Shown: piece after piece, positions 1 through 10,749 of the stretch
How positions within the stretch are numbered: position 1 is the first letter of the stretch
Layout: the number at the start of each line of letters is the position of its first letter
Origin: Chryseobacterium formosum
GTDB taxonomy: Bacteria; Bacteroidota; Bacteroidia; Flavobacteriales; Weeksellaceae
Assembly: GCF_026460885.1 (NCBI RefSeq)
Contig: NZ_JAOVZW010000021.1
Coordinates: forward strand, 1-64,000
Length of the DNA stretch: 64,000 bases
Direction: 5' to 3'
Translations under genes and position numbers: made by a program
Notes under the pieces: model-generated
Databases searched by the model: none
The model's input: only the letters and a program-made list of their open reading frames with translations
What the model was told of the DNA's origin: nothing

Positions 1-128
1 TGGGAAGTGCATTAACCCTGAATTTGGATTACATGATTCCTGCAGCGAAATCATCATCTTCAGATATCTTAGGTAAACCGGCGGGAACTTATACTCAAAC
101 CGTTACGTATACTGCGACTGCTTTATAA
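1..128 (+). CDS. Pilin-like secreted protein, C-terminal end only (partial at window edge)
   Basis: The window opens inside this gene; 41 codons and a stop remain, read from base 3. The encoded tail is almost identical to the last 41 residues of the intact pilin-like protein at 847-1392, differing at one residue (PAAK instead of PAVK) and at scattered silent bases. Both end in TVTYTATAL. It is therefore a tandem paralogue of that secreted fibre-subunit candidate. Its N-terminus and promoter lie outside the window. The ordinary coding-type divergence (silent changes) suggests a real gene rather than a recent copy. Confidence 0.85.
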   Translation, partial: GSALTLNLDYMIPAAKSSSSDILGKPAGTYTQTVTYTATAL

Positions 129-846: not shown

Positions 847-1392
847 ATGAAAAAATTAATCGCAATCGCAGCCTTAACTATCGGAGCCATCATATTAGGA
901 ACTAATAATGTTCAAGCTCAAAATACAACCGCAACAACAACCGTAAACATTACCCTGAACGATGTGATCTCCATCGACGCAGGAAGTACCGCAATCGGTA
1001 ATACGGTTGACTTTAACTATGCGACTGCAGCAGACTATAACTCTGATCAAACGATTACCAAAGCCAATTCTTTGAAAGTAACTTCAACAAAAAACTTTAA
1101 TGTTAAAGTAAAAGCAGGGGGTGCTAATTTCATGAATGGAACCAACGTAATCCCTGTAAATGTTTTAACGATTAAAGCAGCTTCAGCTTCCGGAACAATG
1201 GGTGGAACAAAAAATGCTGTTGTTTTATCTGCAACGGATCAAAATTTAGTGACAAATGCTCCATTGGGAAGCGCATTAACCTTGAATTTGGATTACATGA
1301 TTCCTGCAGTGAAATCATCATCTTCAGATATCTTAGGTAAACCAGCGGGAACGTATACTCAAACAGTTACGTATACTGCGACTGCTTTATAA
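847..1392 (+). CDS. Secreted pilin-like fibre subunit
   Basis: A 181-residue protein with a clear signal peptide (residues 1-24, cleavage after VQA). The mature part is short, Thr/Ala/Asn-rich and beta-strand-like, with no cysteine, and ends in an alternating strand (TQTVTYTATAL). The C-terminal domain resembles the C-terminal domain of the adhesin-like protein at 5100-6536 and is repeated in the partial gene at 1-128. The gene precedes a PapD-like chaperone (gap 79 bases) and an usher-like barrel, as expected for the major subunit of a chaperone-usher type fibre. A TAAATTTG box at 788-795 may be its -7 element, but no clear -33 TTG is visible. The pilin role is inferred from context; the alternative is a spore-coat-U/DUF4402-like surface protein. 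Confidence 0.75.
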   Translation: MKKLIAIAALTIGAIILGTNNVQAQNTTATTTVNITLNDVISIDAGSTAIGNTVDFNYATAADYNSDQTITKANSLKVTSTKNFNVKVKAGGANFMNGTNVIPVNVLTIKAASASGTMGGTKNAVVLSATDQNLVTNAPLGSALTLNLDYMIPAVKSSSSDILGKPAGTYTQTVTYTATAL

Positions 1393-1471
1393 TAAATTTT
1401 TTAATCTATAAAGCTTTCTTTGTTACGTTTTCAGTAGTTTTGGGAATCTTTATTTTTAAACAATTTACACC

Positions 1472-2272
1472 ATGCGCAAGTTTATTCATCTTTTCATTTT
1501 CTTTATTCTTACAGCGTCTTCATCAGTTCTGGCACAAAGTATTTCGATGTCGCCTACGCGCCTTTTTTTTACCGGTAATCCAGGAGAAAAAGTGACAAAA
1601 ACGGTCACGCTGCAGAACAGCTCGGATAAGGATTATATTTTTAATCTCAACTATAAAGATTGGGCTAGGGAAGAAGACGGAAATAAAGTTTATCTTGAAG
1701 CAGGCAGTTCAAAAACATCTAATGCCGCTTGGGTGTCCACCTTAGAAAACGCAGTAACAGTTCCTGCGAGAAGTACTAAAGAGATTGTAGTAACCATGCA
1801 GATTCCGGCAAACGCATCAAAGTTTGCTGTTACAAACAGTATGTTATTTTTTACCCAACTTCCGCAGCAGGCAGATCAGGCTCGTATTCAGAACGGGATT
1901 GGTATTATTACCTTATTTGAAGTTGGACTTCACATCTTTTATACACCATCTGGAAACCAGACAAAAAGTTTGGATATTACCAATATATCAGAGGTGAATA
2001 ATGAGAATGCAGTAAACAGAAAAGTCGCAGTAAGCATCCATAACGATGGAAATACCATCAATGATGCCACTGTTGAGTTTGAATTGACCAATACAGACAG
2101 TGGTAAGGAAATAAAACTATCTGCAATTGCAATTTCCATGCTTCCCAATACTGATCAGGTCGTTCAGTTTTCTTTACCAGAAAATATTTCAGGAAACTTT
2201 CTTGGTGTAGCTATTATTAAAATGGCCGGATCCAATGATTTACGCGTAGGCGAAAAAAACTTTAAATTTTAA
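1472..2272 (+). CDS. PapD-like periplasmic fimbrial chaperone
   Basis: A 266-residue protein with a signal peptide (1-21, ending VLAQ) and two Ig-like domains (about 22-160 and 165-266). The first domain starts with the typical chaperone strand (ISMSPTRLFFTGNPGEK) and shows the usual VTLQNSSDKDY strand and a PARSTKEIVV proline/basic loop. In chaperone-usher systems such proteins cap and fold subunits by donating a strand in the periplasm. The gene lies between pilin-like and usher-like genes on the same strand, with only 9 bases before the annotated TTG of the next gene. Family assignment rests on strand pattern and context; overall identity to classical PapD would be low. Confidence 0.75.
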   Translation: MRKFIHLFIFFILTASSSVLAQSISMSPTRLFFTGNPGEKVTKTVTLQNSSDKDYIFNLNYKDWAREEDGNKVYLEAGSSKTSNAAWVSTLENAVTVPARSTKEIVVTMQIPANASKFAVTNSMLFFTQLPQQADQARIQNGIGIITLFEVGLHIFYTPSGNQTKSLDITNISEVNNENAVNRKVAVSIHNDGNTINDATVEFELTNTDSGKEIKLSAIAISMLPNTDQVVQFSLPENISGNFLGVAIIKMAGSNDLRVGEKNFKF

Positions 2273-2299
2273 AATTAAGTCTTGAAACCACAAAATGGA

Positions 2300-5089
2300 A
2301 TGCCGACATCAATCCTAAGAAGATCAATATTATTTTTTGCATTTCTTCTTCTGCATTGTTCGTTTGCCTTTGCGCAGGAAAATAAGGATGTAGAGATCCA
2401 TTTTGAAAATAACAGTGTAGCTGTTGAGAAAGGTTCTACTTTTACTAATTTCCTGGTCATTGAGAATAAAAGTTCTGAAGAAATTACCATTCAGAATGTC
2501 ACACCTTATGAAAAGTATCCGGGTTTACTTTTCTATCCCAAAAATGAATTTACCTTAGGTGCCGGTCAGTCTAAAAATTTTCCTGTGAAATTGATCGCCA
2601 ATGTGGATTTTATGAAACTGAAATCCAATGAGATTAAATTCCTGGTTTCGTACACGACATCGACGGTTAACAAAACTGAAAATGCCTCGTTCTTTGTTGA
2701 AAAAGAGGAGAACAAAAACATTGCAATTTATACGGCATCGTATGAAAATTTCATTAATCCCGCTTCTCCCGCTTCATCAATCCTTCTGATTGTAGAAAAT
2801 CAGGGTTACGGTAAACGAACCGTTAAGATTGATTTGCAATCTATTCCTGATGGTTTGGAAATGATACCAAAACAGCAAACCGTATCGCTGGAAGGTTTAG
2901 AAAAGCAAACGGTTGAGATCAAAATTACAGTCAGAAAACAGAATACGATTTTCCCAGAATTTAATATTAATGCAACCGCCACTGACGTTCTTAATAATGA
3001 AATTGTGGGAAGCAATACGCTATACTTAATTATTTTATCAAACAACAGACAAATTGCCAGAGGAAACGAAGGGGTGAGCGGAAGTAATTATGCAGAAATT
3101 GCCTATAACGAAAACAGCTCAGGTTTCAATTTTCTTCAATTGAGAGGAAACACCATGTTTCGAGTGACTGAAAATTTGAAATCTCGTTTCAATATAGGTG
3201 CGGATTACTATCATGAAGACGGCCGTTATAACCTATATGATACTTGGCTGGAGCTGGAGAGAAAAAATACGGTATTACGGGTTGGGAATGTTAATAGTAA
3301 CGATTATGATTATCCGGTTTTTGGAAGAGGTGGGAAAATGTCTACTCAATTCGATAAAAATAATCAGATTGAAGTTCTAGCGTTGGAAAATAATTACAAC
3401 CTTTATGGTACCTATTTCCAGCAAACACAAGGATCTACCATAGTGGGTGGAAAATATGGTTTTGGGAATGCTAAATCTTTTACTGGGAAAGTGTCCTACA
3501 TATTTGACCATGATCCGCGCTTTAACGTAGATACACAGGTGGCGAACGCAACAACATCATTGTTAATTAACGATAAACATACAATACGCACCGAGGTGGG
3601 ATTCAGCCACGAAAAAGGTCTTTTGAACAAAGATGAAAACGCAGGCGCTTCAATGGGAGCGAATTATGAAGGGAAAATAGGGAAATGGGATATACAATCT
3701 GTGAATTCTCTTGCCACCAAAAGTTATGCAGGGATCAAAAGAGGATCTTTTTTCTCAAATCAACGGATCAGCCGCCAATTTTCTGCTACTCAGCGTGCCT
3801 TTATTCAATATCAGAATTCACAGGTAGACCCTGAGTTCCTAAGTTTCCAGAGCACGCCAATCCAGACTGTGAATACGGCTAATTTGCGTTATTACTTCAA
3901 CAGCACAGAAGCTTTTGGATCAGGATATCAGTTTTCTGCAAAAAATTGGAATTTTCTGTTGTCTCCAAAAATTGAAAGGCAGAAAACAGCCAGTTTTTAC
4001 ACATCGCAGGAACTTTTCTCCTACCGAATGGAAGCCAACATAAGCACAACATTCGGCGCTCACGGATTGAACTGGACAGGGGAATATTCTTATTCAAAAG
4101 CAGACAATAATCCAGATTGGTTTAACAGTTTTAAAACATCTTTATCGTACAGATATAAATCATTCTCTCTTAACGGAACAGCCCAATGGAACGCAACTAA
4201 TGTTTTTGATTTAAATTCTTATTACAACAACGTAGACCGCAATTTTGCCAATTACAATGTATACGCCTCGTATAATTTCCAGATGTTCAGTAGTAATCTG
4301 ATCGGGTCTTTTTCAGCAGGAACTTTCTATTCGGAACTTTATAAAAATTTAAACAGCAATATCACCGGGAATCTGGAATATAAGATTTCGCCTTCTTGGT
4401 CCAGCACAGGTTATTTTAATCTTTCAGGATATAAATCTACGGCTGAGTATGCAAGCAGTGGTAGTTATTACCAGTTTAGAGTTGGAATTAAAAAATATTT
4501 TACCACAGCCACTGCTTTGGGAAATCATAAAGTGACGTTCCAGTTCTTTGAAGATAAAAATTTCAATGGACTTTTAGATTCAGGCGAAACAGTATTCGCT
4601 GATGAAATTGTAAAACTGCACAATTATGTCGCAATGACGGATAAGAATGGAAAGGTAATTTTTCAAAATGTGCCCGAAGGTATTTACACACTGAAAGTAA
4701 ATGAAAGTGCGGGTGCACGATTGATGATGGATCCCGTTATGATGGTCAATAAAAATATCAACCGCAAAGTAGGCTTGGTGAAAAACATAAAGATTAGTGG
4801 AAAATTAACAGAAATCAAGCAAGCCTACGATGTTTTGGAGACTGATGTAACCGGTATTGTAGTGTATGCAAAAGGTGAAGATGGCGAGATCTATACCGCC
4901 ATAGTCAACCAGAAAAATGAATTTGAGTTTTTCCTGAAAGATGGAAAATATGAACTCTATATTGAAAATGATAAATACATCTACACACAACCCACAAAAA
5001 CGATTCAGGTGACAAAAGAAGGTTATCAGGAAATCGTGATTTTTGAATATAAGAAGAAAGACACCAACATTAAGGTGAAAAAGTTTTAA
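2300..5089 (+). CDS. Usher-like outer-membrane beta-barrel with N-terminal Ig-like and C-terminal regulatory-like domains
   Basis: A protein of about 929 residues from ATG 2300; an in-frame TTG at 2282 would add six residues, but the ATG leaves a cleaner signal peptide (1-25, ending FAFAQ). Residues about 30-235 look like two Ig/NEW3-type domains. Residues about 250-740 are dominated by alternating aromatic/polar strands (YNFQMF, SLSYRYK, YQFRVG), as in a large outer-membrane barrel. The C-terminus carries a carboxypeptidase-regulatory-like fold with a calcium-loop motif DKNFNGLLDSGE near residue 755. Context between chaperone and adhesin genes suggests an usher. It lacks the recognisable FimD plug and N-terminal layout, so it would be a divergent type. 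Alternatively it is a surface barrel of unknown export role. Confidence 0.65.
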   Translation: MPTSILRRSILFFAFLLLHCSFAFAQENKDVEIHFENNSVAVEKGSTFTNFLVIENKSSEEITIQNVTPYEKYPGLLFYPKNEFTLGAGQSKNFPVKLIANVDFMKLKSNEIKFLVSYTTSTVNKTENASFFVEKEENKNIAIYTASYENFINPASPASSILLIVENQGYGKRTVKIDLQSIPDGLEMIPKQQTVSLEGLEKQTVEIKITVRKQNTIFPEFNINATATDVLNNEIVGSNTLYLIILSNNRQIARGNEGVSGSNYAEIAYNENSSGFNFLQLRGNTMFRVTENLKSRFNIGADYYHEDGRYNLYDTWLELERKNTVLRVGNVNSNDYDYPVFGRGGKMSTQFDKNNQIEVLALENNYNLYGTYFQQTQGSTIVGGKYGFGNAKSFTGKVSYIFDHDPRFNVDTQVANATTSLLINDKHTIRTEVGFSHEKGLLNKDENAGASMGANYEGKIGKWDIQSVNSLATKSYAGIKRGSFFSNQRISRQFSATQRAFIQYQNSQVDPEFLSFQSTPIQTVNTANLRYYFNSTEAFGSGYQFSAKNWNFLLSPKIERQKTASFYTSQELFSYRMEANISTTFGAHGLNWTGEYSYSKADNNPDWFNSFKTSLSYRYKSFSLNGTAQWNATNVFDLNSYYNNVDRNFANYNVYASYNFQMFSSNLIGSFSAGTFYSELYKNLNSNITGNLEYKISPSWSSTGYFNLSGYKSTAEYASSGSYYQFRVGIKKYFTTATALGNHKVTFQFFEDKNFNGLLDSGETVFADEIVKLHNYVAMTDKNGKVIFQNVPEGIYTLKVNESAGARLMMDPVMMVNKNINRKVGLVKNIKISGKLTEIKQAYDVLETDVTGIVVYAKGEDGEIYTAIVNQKNEFEFFLKDGKYELYIENDKYIYTQPTKTIQVTKEGYQEIVIFEYKKKDTNIKVKKF

Positions 5090-5099
5090 ATTTAAAGGT

Positions 5100-6536
5100 A
5101 TGAAGACGAAGAGTTTTTTTTTAGTGGGAATTTTTACTGTGTGCTTAGGGTCAACAGTTACAAAGGCTCAGGACGTATACCTGACTATCCCGGAAAATAA
5201 TATTTTTAACAGGACTGAATTTACCTCAGTACCTACAAGAGTAATGACGAATACCAACAGAACAAACTGGGATTATGGCTTTTTGGGATTTGGGGCGATT
5301 GCTCCAACTTTTACTTCTACGTCCGGACCCACTTTTACTCAATCTTCTTCTTCACTATCCACTTTACCCAATTCTGTTCTTCTATGGCAGTTGGAAAGTA
5401 TGGGAGGTCAGTTGCCATCTGTAGGACTTTCGGGTTCTTTACCAGGTTTTCAGGTTTTCAGTGCAAGTGCTGTAAAATGGTTTGAGCCGCCAACAACTGC
5501 ATTTGGGGGAGGATTCAACCGGGGAAATATTAATTTTACATTTAAAATTCCTGCTGCACAATTTACGGCCAATACCTTCCGAGCCGGAAATTATTCTATG
5601 GATATCACTCAGAATTACAACGATTTCACACCACGTAATTTTAAAACAATTTTAGTCATCCCTTCATCGATACGATGGATTACAAACTCCTTAACAAAAT
5701 ATGTTGAAATATCTTCTTTGAATGACTATCGCAGTACCAGCACGAAAGTGTGGGATTTGGGGAATACGGAAATCGCACATACGGTCGATTTTAGTTTTTG
5801 GGCAAAAGCTGCTGCTACAAGTGTTCAGTTCATGTCATCTAAAGGTGTTTCAGGAACAAGAACTATAGCCAGTATTAAATTGGGGAGTAACGGATCTGCT
5901 CTCACGACCAAAGCTTTATCGGGCACTTTTCAGAATTTTTCTGCTGCTAATATTAGTGTTGGAGCGGGAAACAGAAACAGCTTCACCCCAGAGTTGTATG
6001 TCTCTGCAGACGATTTTAAGAATAATTTTTTCGAAGCTGGAACGTATACTTTTGAATTGAACCTTAATGCAAGAAGTACTGATAATTCAATTAACAGTTT
6101 GCAAAATACAGCTGTTCAGTTAAAGGTGCTTCCTCGGTCGGAGATCACCATCCCCAGCTCGGGACGAAATGTAAACTTCAATTTTAATACCGCTGCTCAA
6201 TATACAAATGGTCAGTCACAAATGATTCCGAACCAAATTATATTATCCAATAATGAAAGTTTTGAACTGTATGTAAAATCGGACGAAAATTATTTCAAAA
6301 AAGGCGGTGTCCAGACAAATATCAATTCCAATATCTTACAAATTGGTGTGGAGGGAAGTTCTATAGATGCTCCTTTATCCAAAACACCACAAAAAATACT
6401 TTTTAACGGAACACCGGTTTTGGACCAGCAACTAGACGTAAGATATACTATACCACCTGCGGGTGCCCAAAGTTTGGTAGGGAAAGAAAATACTACGTAC
6501 TCTATTAATGTCTATTATAGCTTTACGGCAATTTAA
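5100..6536 (+). CDS. Fibre tip adhesin-like secreted protein
   Basis: A 478-residue protein with signal peptide 1-23 (ending VTKAQ), starting 10 bases after the usher-like gene. Residues about 25-340 form a unique Thr/Ser/Asn-rich beta region. Residues about 343-478 follow the same pattern as the pilin-like subunit (FNFNTAAQY; FELYVKSDENYF; LDVRYTIP; TYSINVYYSFTAI at the end). A two-domain protein with a unique N-terminal half and a pilin-like C-terminal half is the classical layout of a tip adhesin. Receptor unknown. The call is inferred from domain logic and operon position. Confidence 0.6.
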   Translation: MKTKSFFLVGIFTVCLGSTVTKAQDVYLTIPENNIFNRTEFTSVPTRVMTNTNRTNWDYGFLGFGAIAPTFTSTSGPTFTQSSSSLSTLPNSVLLWQLESMGGQLPSVGLSGSLPGFQVFSASAVKWFEPPTTAFGGGFNRGNINFTFKIPAAQFTANTFRAGNYSMDITQNYNDFTPRNFKTILVIPSSIRWITNSLTKYVEISSLNDYRSTSTKVWDLGNTEIAHTVDFSFWAKAAATSVQFMSSKGVSGTRTIASIKLGSNGSALTTKALSGTFQNFSAANISVGAGNRNSFTPELYVSADDFKNNFFEAGTYTFELNLNARSTDNSINSLQNTAVQLKVLPRSEITIPSSGRNVNFNFNTAAQYTNGQSQMIPNQIILSNNESFELYVKSDENYFKKGGVQTNINSNILQIGVEGSSIDAPLSKTPQKILFNGTPVLDQQLDVRYTIPPAGAQSLVGKENTTYSINVYYSFTAI

Positions 6537-6561
6537 CAATACTTTCTATAAAACTCTTTTT

Positions 6562-9309
6562 ATGGACCATTTTAATAACAATAATAAATTGCCGAATCAG
6601 CACGATATTGATCAATTAAATGCATTCGAAAAAAAATATGACGATGTTTTTGATTTGTTAGTGTTTGCAGCTGCTAAAATGGCCAACATAGAGCTGTGTA
6701 CCATCAGTATTACCTTGAAAGGGAAAGTATATGTTCTCGCCTCCAGTGATGGGTCCGTTAATCAAATCTATCCTCAGAATCCTCACTTTCTTTTGGATAA
6801 TCACACTTCGATTTATGAGTTTAAGAACTTGGAATTTAAATTTCATAGAAGTTATCCCATCCCTGCTCTTGAGGACACTCTCATTGCTCATTTAAATTTA
6901 TTTGGCAGGGAGGAGAAAAATTTAGGTAAACCAGAGGAAGAGCTAATCCATAAGATTCTGAACCAAGCGTCAAAATGGTTTTTGGTTAAAGAAAAAGAAC
7001 AGCTATTACTTACTTATGATGCACTTTTTGAAACATCCACTGATTTGTTAGGCGTCTTGTCTTTAGAAGGGAAATTCGTAAAACTAAATCCAGCATTTAC
7101 GAAAATATTTGGGTGGGACGATGAACAGTTCATTAGTAAAAGTTTTATTGAATATGTTCTTCCGGAAGACAAGCAATCAACTTTTCAGGCATTAGAAGCA
7201 TCTGTGCTGGGGGAAACTTTATCTCATTTTACTAACAGATACATCATAAAATCCGGAGAGGTTAAATGGATTCAGTGGACCTTCACACCTGAACTTGAAT
7301 CTGGAGTAGTATATGCCATCGGAAGAGATATTACAGAATTTACTACAAAAAAAAAATCACTCAAAAGAAGTGAGCAGAAGTATCGTGGTCTTTTTGAAAA
7401 AAATCAGGGAATAATAAGTATTCATGATACCGAAGGCAATTTTCTGGATGTCAATGAGGCCGGTTTAAAGGCTTCGGGTTTTTCCAGAGAAGAATTACTG
7501 AGCCTTAGTCTTTTTGATCTCATCATCCCGGAAAAGCATGAAAATGTAAAAGTGTACCTGAGCCAAATCAAAATAGCAAATCATGCTTCTGGTGAAATGA
7601 CCATCCGCAAGAAAAATGGAGAAAAAGCAGTCTGGCATTTTATGAGTGCTATAGACGAAGATATCGATGGCAATTTGCAGGTAATGGCTAATGCAGTGGA
7701 CATCACCGAAAGGATAAAGATGGAAAAGAAGATCTTGATAGCAAAAGAGCTGGCAGAAAAAGCCAATGTTTTAAAATCTGAGTTTGTAGCCAATATGAGC
7801 CATGAGATTAGAACCCCTTTGAATGGTATTATCGGTTTTACAGAGCTCCTTTTAGATACCAATCTGGACGAAACACAGAGGCAGTATTTAGAAATTATCA
7901 ATCAATCCGGAGTTACCTTATACAGCATCATCAATGATATTTTAGACTTCTCAAAATTGGAAAAGCAAAAACTTAAGCTTAACCTTGACAAAGTAGAGAT
8001 CGAAGAGATGATTTCAGAAGCCTTCAATATTGTTGCGTACAGTAGTACTACCAATAATCAGGTAGAAATGCTTTTTGATGTTGATGACACCATACCTAAA
8101 TATATATGGACTGATGAGATGCGCTTAAAACAGGTTTTCGTCAATCTTTTGAGCAATGCTATAAAATTTACTGAAAAAGGTGAGATTGTTCTATATGTAA
8201 AAGTTTTAGATGATTTAGGAGAAGGAAAAAAACGAATCCGGTTTGGAGTTCGCGATACAGGAATTGGAATTAACAGCGAAAACCAGGCAGAAATTTTCAA
8301 CGCATTTTCACAGGAAGATGGCGGTATTAGTAAAAGATATAGCGGGACTGGCCTTGGACTCACCATTTCAAACCAAATCTTGAACCTTGCCGGCAGTGCT
8401 TTACAGGTTGAAAGCGATCAGGGTAGGGGCAGTGACTTTTTCTTTGATATTCTGTTTGATACAGAGGAAGAGGAGTACGATTTAAGCTTAACTGATATTA
8501 AGAGAGTTTTGGTTGTGGATGATAATGAATACAATCGCAAAATCCTGAAAAGGATGTTGGAACGGAAAAATATTGAAGTTATTGAGTGTGATAGCGGGTT
8601 GAAAGCTTTGCTTTTAATCATGGATAAGTCCGATTTTGATGTAATTATTATGGATTATCATATGCCCGTTATGGATGGTATTGAAACCATCAGGAAAATA
8701 AAAAATATTATTACCGATACCACCAGTGTAGCACCGTATGTTGTTTTGTACAGCTCGTCAGATGACACAGATTTAAAAGATGCATGCGACGAATTAGAAA
8801 TAGAAAATCGACTCGTAAAACCGATTCGCATGAAACAGATGTACCAGATTTTATCCAATTTAAAGAGTTCTGAAAAGAAAAAACCGGATCAAATAAAAAC
8901 TGGTGGAAGTGAGACGAGCAGGGGCGAGATAAAAATTTTAATTGCTGAGGATAATGTCGTTAATTTGCTACTCACGAAAACTTATATAAAGGATATTATT
9001 CCTCAAGCTCTGATCATCGAGGCAAAAGATGGCACTGAAGCGGTTGAAAAATACGAAAAAGAAAATCCTGATCTTATTTTAATGGATATTCAGATGCCCC
9101 ATCTTAATGGCATTGAAGCGACAAAAAAAATAAGGGTGTTGGAAAAAAACATAGAAATCCCTATTATTGCATTAACGGCGGGGAGTCTTCCTGGTGAGAA
9201 AGAAAAGTGTATGCAAGCAGGAATGTCAGACTTTTTAACCAAACCTTTATTAAAACAAACCCTGTCTGATATGATTAAAAAATGGTTTGGCAAAGAGATC
9301 GAAAAGTAA
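6562..9309 (+). CDS. Hybrid sensor histidine kinase, GAF-PAS-PAS-HisKA-HATPase-REC-REC
   Basis: I chose ATG 6562 (915 residues), 26 bases after the adhesin stop; an upstream in-frame ATG at 6508 would overlap that gene by 29 bases. Order: GAF-like sensor (about 20-145), PAS (148-270), PAS (270-395), HisKA with NMSHEIRTPLNG (His414), HATPase with NLLSNAIKF, DTGIGI and GTGLGL boxes, receiver 1 with phospho-acceptor Asp698 (IIMDYHMP) and receiver 2 with Asp842 (LILMDIQMP). No transmembrane segment is visible, so the sensor is probably cytoplasmic, and no Hpt domain is present. It heads a three-gene signalling block directly behind the fibre genes and may control them; the signal is unknown. Confidence 0.93.
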   Translation: MDHFNNNNKLPNQHDIDQLNAFEKKYDDVFDLLVFAAAKMANIELCTISITLKGKVYVLASSDGSVNQIYPQNPHFLLDNHTSIYEFKNLEFKFHRSYPIPALEDTLIAHLNLFGREEKNLGKPEEELIHKILNQASKWFLVKEKEQLLLTYDALFETSTDLLGVLSLEGKFVKLNPAFTKIFGWDDEQFISKSFIEYVLPEDKQSTFQALEASVLGETLSHFTNRYIIKSGEVKWIQWTFTPELESGVVYAIGRDITEFTTKKKSLKRSEQKYRGLFEKNQGIISIHDTEGNFLDVNEAGLKASGFSREELLSLSLFDLIIPEKHENVKVYLSQIKIANHASGEMTIRKKNGEKAVWHFMSAIDEDIDGNLQVMANAVDITERIKMEKKILIAKELAEKANVLKSEFVANMSHEIRTPLNGIIGFTELLLDTNLDETQRQYLEIINQSGVTLYSIINDILDFSKLEKQKLKLNLDKVEIEEMISEAFNIVAYSSTTNNQVEMLFDVDDTIPKYIWTDEMRLKQVFVNLLSNAIKFTEKGEIVLYVKVLDDLGEGKKRIRFGVRDTGIGINSENQAEIFNAFSQEDGGISKRYSGTGLGLTISNQILNLAGSALQVESDQGRGSDFFFDILFDTEEEEYDLSLTDIKRVLVVDDNEYNRKILKRMLERKNIEVIECDSGLKALLLIMDKSDFDVIIMDYHMPVMDGIETIRKIKNIITDTTSVAPYVVLYSSSDDTDLKDACDELEIENRLVKPIRMKQMYQILSNLKSSEKKKPDQIKTGGSETSRGEIKILIAEDNVVNLLLTKTYIKDIIPQALIIEAKDGTEAVEKYEKENPDLILMDIQMPHLNGIEATKKIRVLEKNIEIPIIALTAGSLPGEKEKCMQAGMSDFLTKPLLKQTLSDMIKKWFGKEIEK

Positions 9310-9370
9310 ACCGCAAAATCAGCTTTAAAAGATATTGAAATGGCAATTTCTTTACATTGATACTTATATT

Positions 9371-10105
9371 ATGGAGGAATTTATCAAGGAACTGCAGATA
9401 AAAATCGAAAAACTGGAAAACGAAATCAATTTCAAGAACGGACTGATCTCGTTATTGTCTCATGATTCAAAAGAACTGTTTGGAAATTTTCTATGGCTTC
9501 TGGAAGCAATGGAACAAAAGACCATAAGTGAGGAAGATTTTTTTAAGTTGTTACCGGAGATAAAAAGAGATGCTCAAAAGAATCTGCAAACCGCTCAGGA
9601 CAGCACCGCCTGGCTAAAAACACAATATGGTGAATATAAGATTAAACCTGTGAAAATCATGGTGATGGATCTTTTTTACCATTTGGAAGAAAAATACGCT
9701 GCTGGATTAAAAGAAAAAAATATTAAATTTTATTTTAAAGGCGATCCCGAAGCATTTCTTACAACCGATTATTTGTTGCTCAAATATATTTTAGACAAGA
9801 TTTTTAATAATGCGGTAAAATACTCTTTTCCGGGAAAAGATATTTATTTACAGGAAGTTACAGTAGATGATCAGATCATACTTTCTGTGATCGACTTCGG
9901 AACTGGAATAGATGAAAAGTATTTATCTGCCATCTACACCTATGAGAACCCCATATTCAAGGGAACTGCCGGCGAAAAAGGAGTTGGATTAAGTTTGAAA
10001 ATTGTTAAAAATTTTATATCCTTGATGCATGGAAAAATCAACATCTTTTCGTCTGAAAATAATGGTACTACGGTTTCCCTTTTTTTACGTAAATTTATAG
10101 AATAA
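9371..10105 (+). CDS. Sensor histidine kinase, short, no sensor domain
   Basis: From ATG 9371 this is a 244-residue kinase (an in-frame TTG at 9335 is less likely). It begins with a coiled-coil stretch (KELQIKIEKLENEI), then a dimerisation/phosphoacceptor helix with LLSHDSKE (candidate His31), then an HATPase_c domain with FNNAVKYSF (N box), DFGTGI (G1) and GEKGVGLSL (G2). It lacks any input domain or membrane segment, so it may be driven by a partner, possibly the hybrid kinase just upstream. Its stop overlaps the start of the response-regulator gene (TAATG), implying translational coupling. Confidence 0.88.
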   Translation: MEEFIKELQIKIEKLENEINFKNGLISLLSHDSKELFGNFLWLLEAMEQKTISEEDFFKLLPEIKRDAQKNLQTAQDSTAWLKTQYGEYKIKPVKIMVMDLFYHLEEKYAAGLKEKNIKFYFKGDPEAFLTTDYLLLKYILDKIFNNAVKYSFPGKDIYLQEVTVDDQIILSVIDFGTGIDEKYLSAIYTYENPIFKGTAGEKGVGLSLKIVKNFISLMHGKINIFSSENNGTTVSLFLRKFIE

Positions 10106-10749
10106 TGGGTTTAAAAGTAAACGTGCATATTATCGTTGCAGACGATCATGGTATTGTCCGCATGGGTTTAATACAAACCATCAAACGGCTTCTACCTGAT
10201 GCTGTAATCTCTGAAGTAGAGGATTTTAAAGCACTGTACAAAGTAATTTTGAATGAAAAACTTGATCTGGCCATTATGGATGTCAATATGCCTAATGGTT
10301 CTGTTCAGGAAGCGATTGATTATATAAAAATACATCAACCAGACTTAAAAGTTCTGATATTCTCTTCTCAAGATGAAGAATTGTACGCAATGCGTTATTT
10401 AAAGATGGGTGCAGGTGGTTATCTCAGCAAGCAAAGCTCCAATTCAGTAATTGAAACCGCTTTGACGGCGATGCTTAGTACTGGCCGATATGCAAGTGAA
10501 GAAGTAAAAGAAGCGATGTTTTTAGAATCATTAAATGGTCCAACAAAAAAAACGACTCTTGAATCTCTCTCAGACCGCGAATTGCAAATTGCTAATAAGC
10601 TTGCAGAAGGTATTCCCCTCAAAGAACTTTCAAATCAATTAAACCTCCACTCATCTACGGTTAGTACCTATAAGAACCGGCTGTTTGAAAAACTGAAAAT
10701 ACGATCGATCCCTGAATTGGTGGAAATACTAAGGTTGTATAATCATTAA
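10105..10749 (+). CDS. LuxR/NarL-family response regulator
   Basis: A 214-residue regulator. An N-terminal receiver domain has an acidic DDH pocket near residue 11 and phospho-acceptor Asp59 (LAIMDVNMP). A C-terminal LuxR-type helix-turn-helix lies at about 150-210 (LSDRELQIANKLAEG; HSSTVSTYKNRLFEKL). It shares one base with the kinase gene before it and is the likely output of that kinase. The layout recalls the FimZ/BvgA class that controls fimbriae in Proteobacteria, so regulation of the 847-6536 genes is a reasonable inference but not shown by the sequence. Confidence 0.92.
   Translation: MGLKVNVHIIVADDHGIVRMGLIQTIKRLLPDAVISEVEDFKALYKVILNEKLDLAIMDVNMPNGSVQEAIDYIKIHQPDLKVLIFSSQDEELYAMRYLKMGAGGYLSKQSSNSVIETALTAMLSTGRYASEEVKEAMFLESLNGPTKKTTLESLSDRELQIANKLAEGIPLKELSNQLNLHSSTVSTYKNRLFEKLKIRSIPELVEILRLYNH

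Follow-up and report, generated by a model that had tools for sequence, protein, structure and literature searches.

Among described surface systems, the chaperone-usher pathways (FimC/FimD, EcpB/EcpC, and the archaic Csu system) come closest to the locus studied here; for the archaic systems, the part of the literature consulted names proteobacteria, Cyanobacteria, and Deinococcus-Thermus as phyla (PMC4654587). A second point of comparison is provided by the Gram-positive WxL/WxLIP (DUF916-DUF3324) clusters, in which a protein with two immunoglobulin (Ig)-like domains accompanies small and large proteins with a common C-terminal domain; in a published AlphaFold2 model, a strand of WxLIP completes the WxL sandwich (PMC10599100). 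We analyzed a stretch of 64,000 nucleotides from Chryseobacterium formosum (assembly GCF_026460885.1, contig NZ_JAOVZW010000021.1, positions 1 to 64,000 of the forward strand; hereafter the window), which carries at positions 847-6536 genes for a pilin, a chaperone, a usher-like outer-membrane protein, and a putative tip adhesin. The locus has the gene set of chaperone-usher pathways, a two-Ig chaperone homologous to theirs by profile, an adhesin with a C-terminal pilin domain, and an alternating N-terminal pilin segment. It differs from them in that the usher lacks a PF00577 match and a canonical N-domain and is linked to canonical ushers, through its barrel, only via a second class of ushers, and in that its pilins are not detectably related to canonical pilins. 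The WxL/WxLIP clusters share with it the two-Ig protein, homologous by profile, and the locus differs from them in possessing an outer-membrane partner. FimA/Mfa1 (type V) fimbriae have the phylum and the presumed formation of fimbriae in common with it.

We consider it quite probable that these genes form an operon for a surface fibre that is assembled in the manner of a chaperone-usher system, though with diverged parts. A first-pass annotation of the window had proposed a chaperone-usher variant in Bacteroidota, and this is the best-supported reading in view of the PapD-type profile homology of the chaperone, the link of the usher via the second class, and the pilin domain common to pilin and adhesin. 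Among the matches listed in a literature search of partial coverage (titles and abstract openings), no chaperone-usher system in Bacteroidota was described; nor was a homologue characterized under another name found among the matches listed.

The Chaperone Family

In profile-profile comparisons, 15 chaperones of the window type (class I) matched nine canonical PapD-type chaperones at 96.5% over 206 columns, and an enlarged set of 30 sequences did so at 96.9% over 207 columns; the reversed controls gave 0.1% in both cases. Against three actinobacterial DUF916-type proteins, the same family reached 98.4% over 232 columns (reversed 0.1%), and the canonical chaperones compared directly with DUF916 gave no match (0.9%). 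The chaperone is thus no more distant from Gram-positive WxLIP than from the PapD type, and that a single chaperone family connects with both is the most unexpected result of our computations. The words 'chaperone', 'PapD', and 'FimC' are absent from the text of the WxLIP paper (PMC10599100).

When nine chaperones were scanned singly against Pfam, weak PapD_N matches were obtained in two of them (best E 0.004) and WxLIP_PGBD matches in six (best 7.5e-8). The window chaperone stayed below the Pfam cut-off for WxLIP_PGBD; that of a third chaperone-usher-like cluster of the same genome (locus L128 on contig C16, 6514-11769) was above the cut-off for WxLIP_HBD and under it for PGBD. Among 16 chaperones, the alignment column of FimC Arg8 is occupied by Arg in 12 and that of FimC Lys112 by Lys or His in 13; in the window chaperone, Arg30 (1559-1561) and His154 (1931-1933) are aligned to them. 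A scan for alternating hydrophobic residues placed the start of five of the 12 strongest among 237 segments at residues 143-149, where we predict the donor strand of the chaperone. Relatives of the chaperone were not found in viral contigs.

The Usher-Like Protein and Class II Ushers

A search with the Pfam family Usher (PF00577) over 198 genomes of the phylum yielded one sub-threshold match and none over the cut-off; E. coli, among 14 controls, was matched. The sub-threshold match led to a second class of Bacteroidota ushers (class II), represented by 26 sequences after exclusion of locus L139, which has no open reading frame of at least 780 aa. For comparisons among class I, class II, and canonical ushers, the proteins were trimmed to their first 1000 residues. 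Compared with canonical ushers, the 26 class II sequences gave 99.1% over 567 columns, and a set of seven gave 97.4% (reversed 1.7%); the class II N-domain was unmatched to the canonical one (0.3%). In turn, the two C-terminal domains of class I matched those of class II at 99.4%, and the barrels of the two classes matched at 67.6% in global mode (reversed 2.5%).

As the first-pass annotation had stated, the barrel protein opens with two Ig-like domains (model residues ~35-250). This pair matched the class I chaperones at 93.8% (reversed 0.6%) in profile-profile comparison, and canonical and class II chaperones at 27.7% and 3.8%, respectively; because the latter two values are low, the likeness to the class I chaperones may reflect only the broad Ig-like superfamily. 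The annotation had also described a regulatory-like end with a calcium-loop motif. The motif, DKNFNGLLDSGE, is present at residues 758-769; the regulatory-like character is left with SdrD_B and CarboxypepD_reg matches that stay sub-threshold in the stretch around it. The gene start had been placed at 2300, which is an internal ATG; the start is the TTG at 2282. Counting strands by alternation did not distinguish the barrel from other beta regions and was not used.

With partial alignments counted, class II was matched in 65 of 296 genomes at an E value of at most 1e-10, and class II relatives reside on plasmids of Polaromonas, Novosphingobium, and Pseudoalteromonas, where they adjoin DUF4402 pilins and a chaperone-size gene. 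In the class II loci L099, L100, and L101, the cluster is followed by genes for three proteins, one of ~620 aa (with FliG-like domains in L099), a small one, and one of 265 aa; there may be a link to a motility-type complex.

Pilins, Adhesin, and the TLP Structures

The claim of a two-domain adhesin held up: the pilin profile matched its C-terminal ~144 residues with an E value of 6.2e-22 (window 6102-6530). In the window pilin, signal peptidase I presumably cuts before Gln25, and hydrophobic and polar residues alternate at residues 31-37; this is the predicted donor strand (within window 919-963), whose alignment columns rank third among 150 segments for alternation. With the signal cut set by a simple pattern in 48 pilin-domain proteins, the distance from the presumed cut to the first shared strand is 23-40 residues in 37 of them; in the remaining 11, which have no donor-strand segment and may be tip subunits, it is 8-19 residues. 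A profile comparison of class I with class II pilins gave 89.8% over 35 columns when 22 sequences were used, but 33.5% over 15 columns with 48 sequences, and a relationship is not claimed. One 471-aa adhesin was excluded from the pilin set in the profile comparison.

None of the four operon proteins has a lipobox pattern within its N-terminal 40 residues; the system does not look like the lipoprotein route of Mfa1/FimA fimbriae, which the first-pass annotation had named as the better-known one in Bacteroidota. Neither the pilin nor the adhesin of the window matched a Pfam family; a scan of 12 pilins gave no match to WxL, and the FimA/Mfa families were matched by none of the window proteins and pilins scanned. 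Type V fimbriae were rejected for the lack of both a lipobox and a Pfam match.

The most useful connection is that to the structures of TLP-1 (9IKJ) and TLP-2 (9IKK), each of which contains the sequence in 16 chains. The profile built from 22 class I pilins matched TLP-2 at 5.1e-9 and TLP-1 at 2e-8 (0.018 and 0.054, respectively, with an earlier profile of 12 sequences), and one pilin from locus L104, taken singly, matched at 4.9e-9. The pilin of locus L169 aligned with TLP-2 at E 3.7e-57 (residues 24-255 against 2-236), over its full mature length from just past the presumed signal peptide almost to its C-terminus; its gene is separated by 144 bp from a chaperone gene and by 732 bp from one for a class I usher. 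Moreover, in nine of 18 clusters opened around class I usher matches there is a pilin that shares 42-55% identity with the ~100 N-terminal residues of TLP-2. When 296 genomes were searched with a 55-residue fragment of TLP, no match was obtained. We take 9IKJ and 9IKK to be helical CryoSeek fibrils from pond water. Pond filaments of this kind have not been conclusively identified, according to a review.

Evidence Against a Chaperone-Usher System and Rival Explanations

Several results weigh against reading the locus as a chaperone-usher system. PF00577 has no match in the usher-like protein of the window, the class I barrel matched canonical usher barrels at 0.4% (equal to the reversed control), and the class I N-domain was unmatched to the N-domains of seven canonical ushers (0.2%) as well as to that of class II (0.8%). 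In local mode, the barrels of class I and class II matched at only 24-26%. The AlphaFold2 model of the protein has a mean predicted local distance difference test (pLDDT) value of 42.6, with residues 244-857 below 50 nearly throughout and the barrel unfolded. The first-pass annotation had already denied that the protein is a recognizable FimD-type usher, and PF00577 and canonical N-domain matches are indeed missing. Because the canonical-barrel match is nil and the modelled barrel unfolded, we infer the usher role by the chain of homology via class II.

For the chaperone, the predicted model of two beta-sandwich domains is modest (pLDDT 63.8, predicted template modelling score 0.49). Its top matches among solved structures were WxLIP (9i25/9i1y; Z 12.2 and 11.8, root-mean-square deviation (rmsd) ~13 over both domains), and unrelated Ig-like proteins (axonemal proteins, GH2 enzymes, transglutaminases) scored level with or above the chaperones of chaperone-usher systems, such as CsuC (6fq0; Z 11.6, rmsd 2.2 over 121 residues of one domain, the N-domain) and CfaA (4y2o; Z 11.3, rmsd 2.6 over 119, one domain). 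Since CsuC and CfaA are level with unrelated Ig-like proteins, the predicted fold agrees with the profile homology but is nonspecific and does not prove it; the outcome favors the PapD-like two-Ig fold anticipated earlier, although the best match is WxLIP. Further, Arg is missing from the Arg8 column in four of the 16 chaperones, and the window chaperone has His in place of Lys112. The class I pilins did not match canonical pilins (5.8%, profile-profile), the window pilin is related to TLP remotely, by profile (5.1e-9) and without a pairwise match, and in four of the 18 opened loci the chaperone is missing from the fetched stretch.

The locus could instead encode a surface complex akin to WxL/WxLIP in a Gram-negative bacterium, its two-Ig protein stabilizing a non-polymeric assembly and its barrel merely anchoring it, with no long fibre; we regard this as unlikely. 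The DUF916-type match, the WxLIP fold match, and the third chaperone of the genome above the WxLIP_HBD cut-off would fit such a complex, as would the WxL clusters, in which two proteins, one small and one large, likewise have a common C-terminal domain and are accompanied by a two-Ig protein (PMC10599100). The several pilin copies per locus and the alternating N-terminal pilin segment argue against it, as do the class II link to true ushers and the related pilins that match PDB entries of 16 chains. The C-terminal transmembrane helix of WxLIP is likewise missing here: the chaperone model ends in a strand (257-265), with no helix.

It is equally improbable, in our view, that the fibre polymerizes by itself outside the cell, in a TasA-like manner, and that the outer-membrane protein has no relationship to ushers and serves as a barrel for export or anchoring. 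The nil similarity of the class I barrel to canonical ushers and its unfolded AlphaFold2 model would be compatible with this explanation; the similarity of class I to class II in both C-terminal domains and, weakly, in the barrel speaks against it. An ordinary archaic chaperone-usher operon gained from Proteobacteria, suggested by the gene order and by the fit of the chaperone N-domain to CsuC, is scarcely credible and was rejected as unsupported, given the differing usher N-domain, a broad spread in Bacteroidia, and PF00577 matches over the cut-off in 0 of 198 genomes of the phylum while the E. coli control was matched.

Locus Layout, Conservation, and Distribution

The order of pilin, chaperone, barrel-type protein, and adhesin genes given by the first-pass annotation was borne out: the four genes are co-directional, with intergenic gaps of 79, 9, and 10 bp (Table 1), and nearly the same set recurs in 29 related loci (28 labelled Chryseobacterium and one Weeksellaceae, some of them on shortened contigs). 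Across these, the pilin is found in 27, the chaperone and the usher in 28 each, and the adhesin in all 29; of the neighboring genes, those for the second kinase and the response regulator are each present in 27. When only the 24 loci exceeding 14 kb are considered, the counts for the six genes, in this order, are 24, 24, 23, 24, 23, and 24. Since it is kept across the 29 related loci, the gene set is held together beyond chance. The usher relatives (n = 27) are 78-87% identical to the window usher. For a large hybrid kinase gene (6508-9309), only four of the 29 loci gave a match covering 60% of the length. In two Chryseobacterium records, L028 and L030, the usher gene is fragmented.

Table 1. 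Features of the fibre locus in the window (all on the + strand)
Feature	Position	Strand	Remarks
3' end of a further tandem pilin gene	3..124	+	truncated by contig start; profile match
Pilin gene	847..1392	+	181 aa
Chaperone gene	1472..2272	+	266 aa; periplasmic, two Ig-like domains, PapD/WxLIP superfamily
Predicted chaperone donor strand	~1898-1942	+	alternation of hydrophobic residues
Usher-like outer-membrane protein gene	2282..5089	+	935 aa; TTG start
N-terminal Ig-like pair, residues 33-252	2378..3037	+	at place of canonical N-domain; predicted model
Predicted beta-barrel region, residues 253-745	3038..4516	+	global alignment to class II barrel
Two C-terminal beta-sandwich domains	4517..5086	+	D-x-N-x-N loop at 4553-4588; profile match to class II ushers
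Putative tip adhesin gene	5100..6536	+	478 aa; C-terminal pilin domain ~6102-6533
Histidine-kinase-like protein, possible regulator	9335..10105	+	kept in 23/24 loci >14 kb
LuxR-type response regulator, possible regulator	10105..10749	+	kept in 24/24 loci >14 kb

Most relatives have several pilin genes per locus. Contig C27 of the same genome ends within a pilin gene and the window opens within another; tandem pilin genes have therefore probably been split between the two by the assembly. Window-type pilin genes also occur in loci L130 (4414-5064) and L131 (4317-4862), with no chaperone or usher gene in the ~9 kb covered around each. The genome contains two more such clusters, on contigs C34 and C16. 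In the second paralogous cluster (L067, L064, L065, L066, and L108), a gene of 276-282 aa lies close to the pilins; from the look of its sequence, we take its product to be an AraC-type regulator.

Within the class Bacteroidia, 51 of 395 genomes were matched by the class I usher profile at E 1e-20 or better, 29 of them in a near whole-profile single alignment; eight of these 29 had supplied profile sequences. Loci from eight of the 51 genomes had been opened earlier, and 18 were newly opened. Within the stretch fetched, all 18 contained a pilin match (two of them weak, E about 1e-3) and 14 a matching chaperone, not always on the same strand. With a first, diverse usher profile, 34 of 395 genomes of the phylum were matched at 1e-6, 22 of them only over the common C-terminal domain. 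Outside Bacteroidota, plasmid 2 of Deinococcus deserti (L170, 4465-8313) carries a pilin-size gene, a chaperone gene, and a gene for a barrel-size protein side by side; the chaperone, annotated as FimB/Mfa2, matches at 6.8e-23, and the barrel-size protein gives a weak usher match.

Proposed Assembly Route and Implications

In a chaperone-usher system with diverged parts, as we propose it, pilins, chaperone, and adhesin would reach the periplasm via ordinary signal peptides, as read from their sequences. By homology to PapD-type chaperones and WxLIP, the two-Ig chaperone would lend a beta strand to the open groove of an unfinished pilin. The 935-residue outer-membrane protein, by its homology via class II ushers, would take in the chaperone-pilin complexes; there, the N-terminal strand of the next pilin would displace the chaperone strand, and the growing fibre would be moved outward with the tip adhesin leading. 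The N-terminal Ig pair probably stands in for the canonical usher N-domain. The shaft would consist of pilins, and the tip would be a pilin-domain protein without the N-terminal strand. The barrel architecture, the strand exchange, and the fibres on Chryseobacterium are inferred. Because no canonical usher N-domain was found, we do not place the system in the classical, alternative, or archaic clade.

More tentatively, the locus may belong to a separate Bacteroidota branch, a possibility to which we give rather less than even weight. The chaperone of this branch would share ancestry with WxLIP; its usher would have had the N-domain swapped for a chaperone-like Ig pair acting in strand exchange. 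It would build the TLP fibres of natural waters, and the Gram-positive WxL clusters would be its usher-less relatives.

If these proposals are true, Bacteroidota would possess a widespread route of fibre assembly beside that of Mfa1/FimA. There would also be a candidate gene cluster for structurally solved environmental fibres of a kind that, according to the review, has not been conclusively identified. PapD-type chaperones and WxLIP, hitherto studied apart, would become connected.

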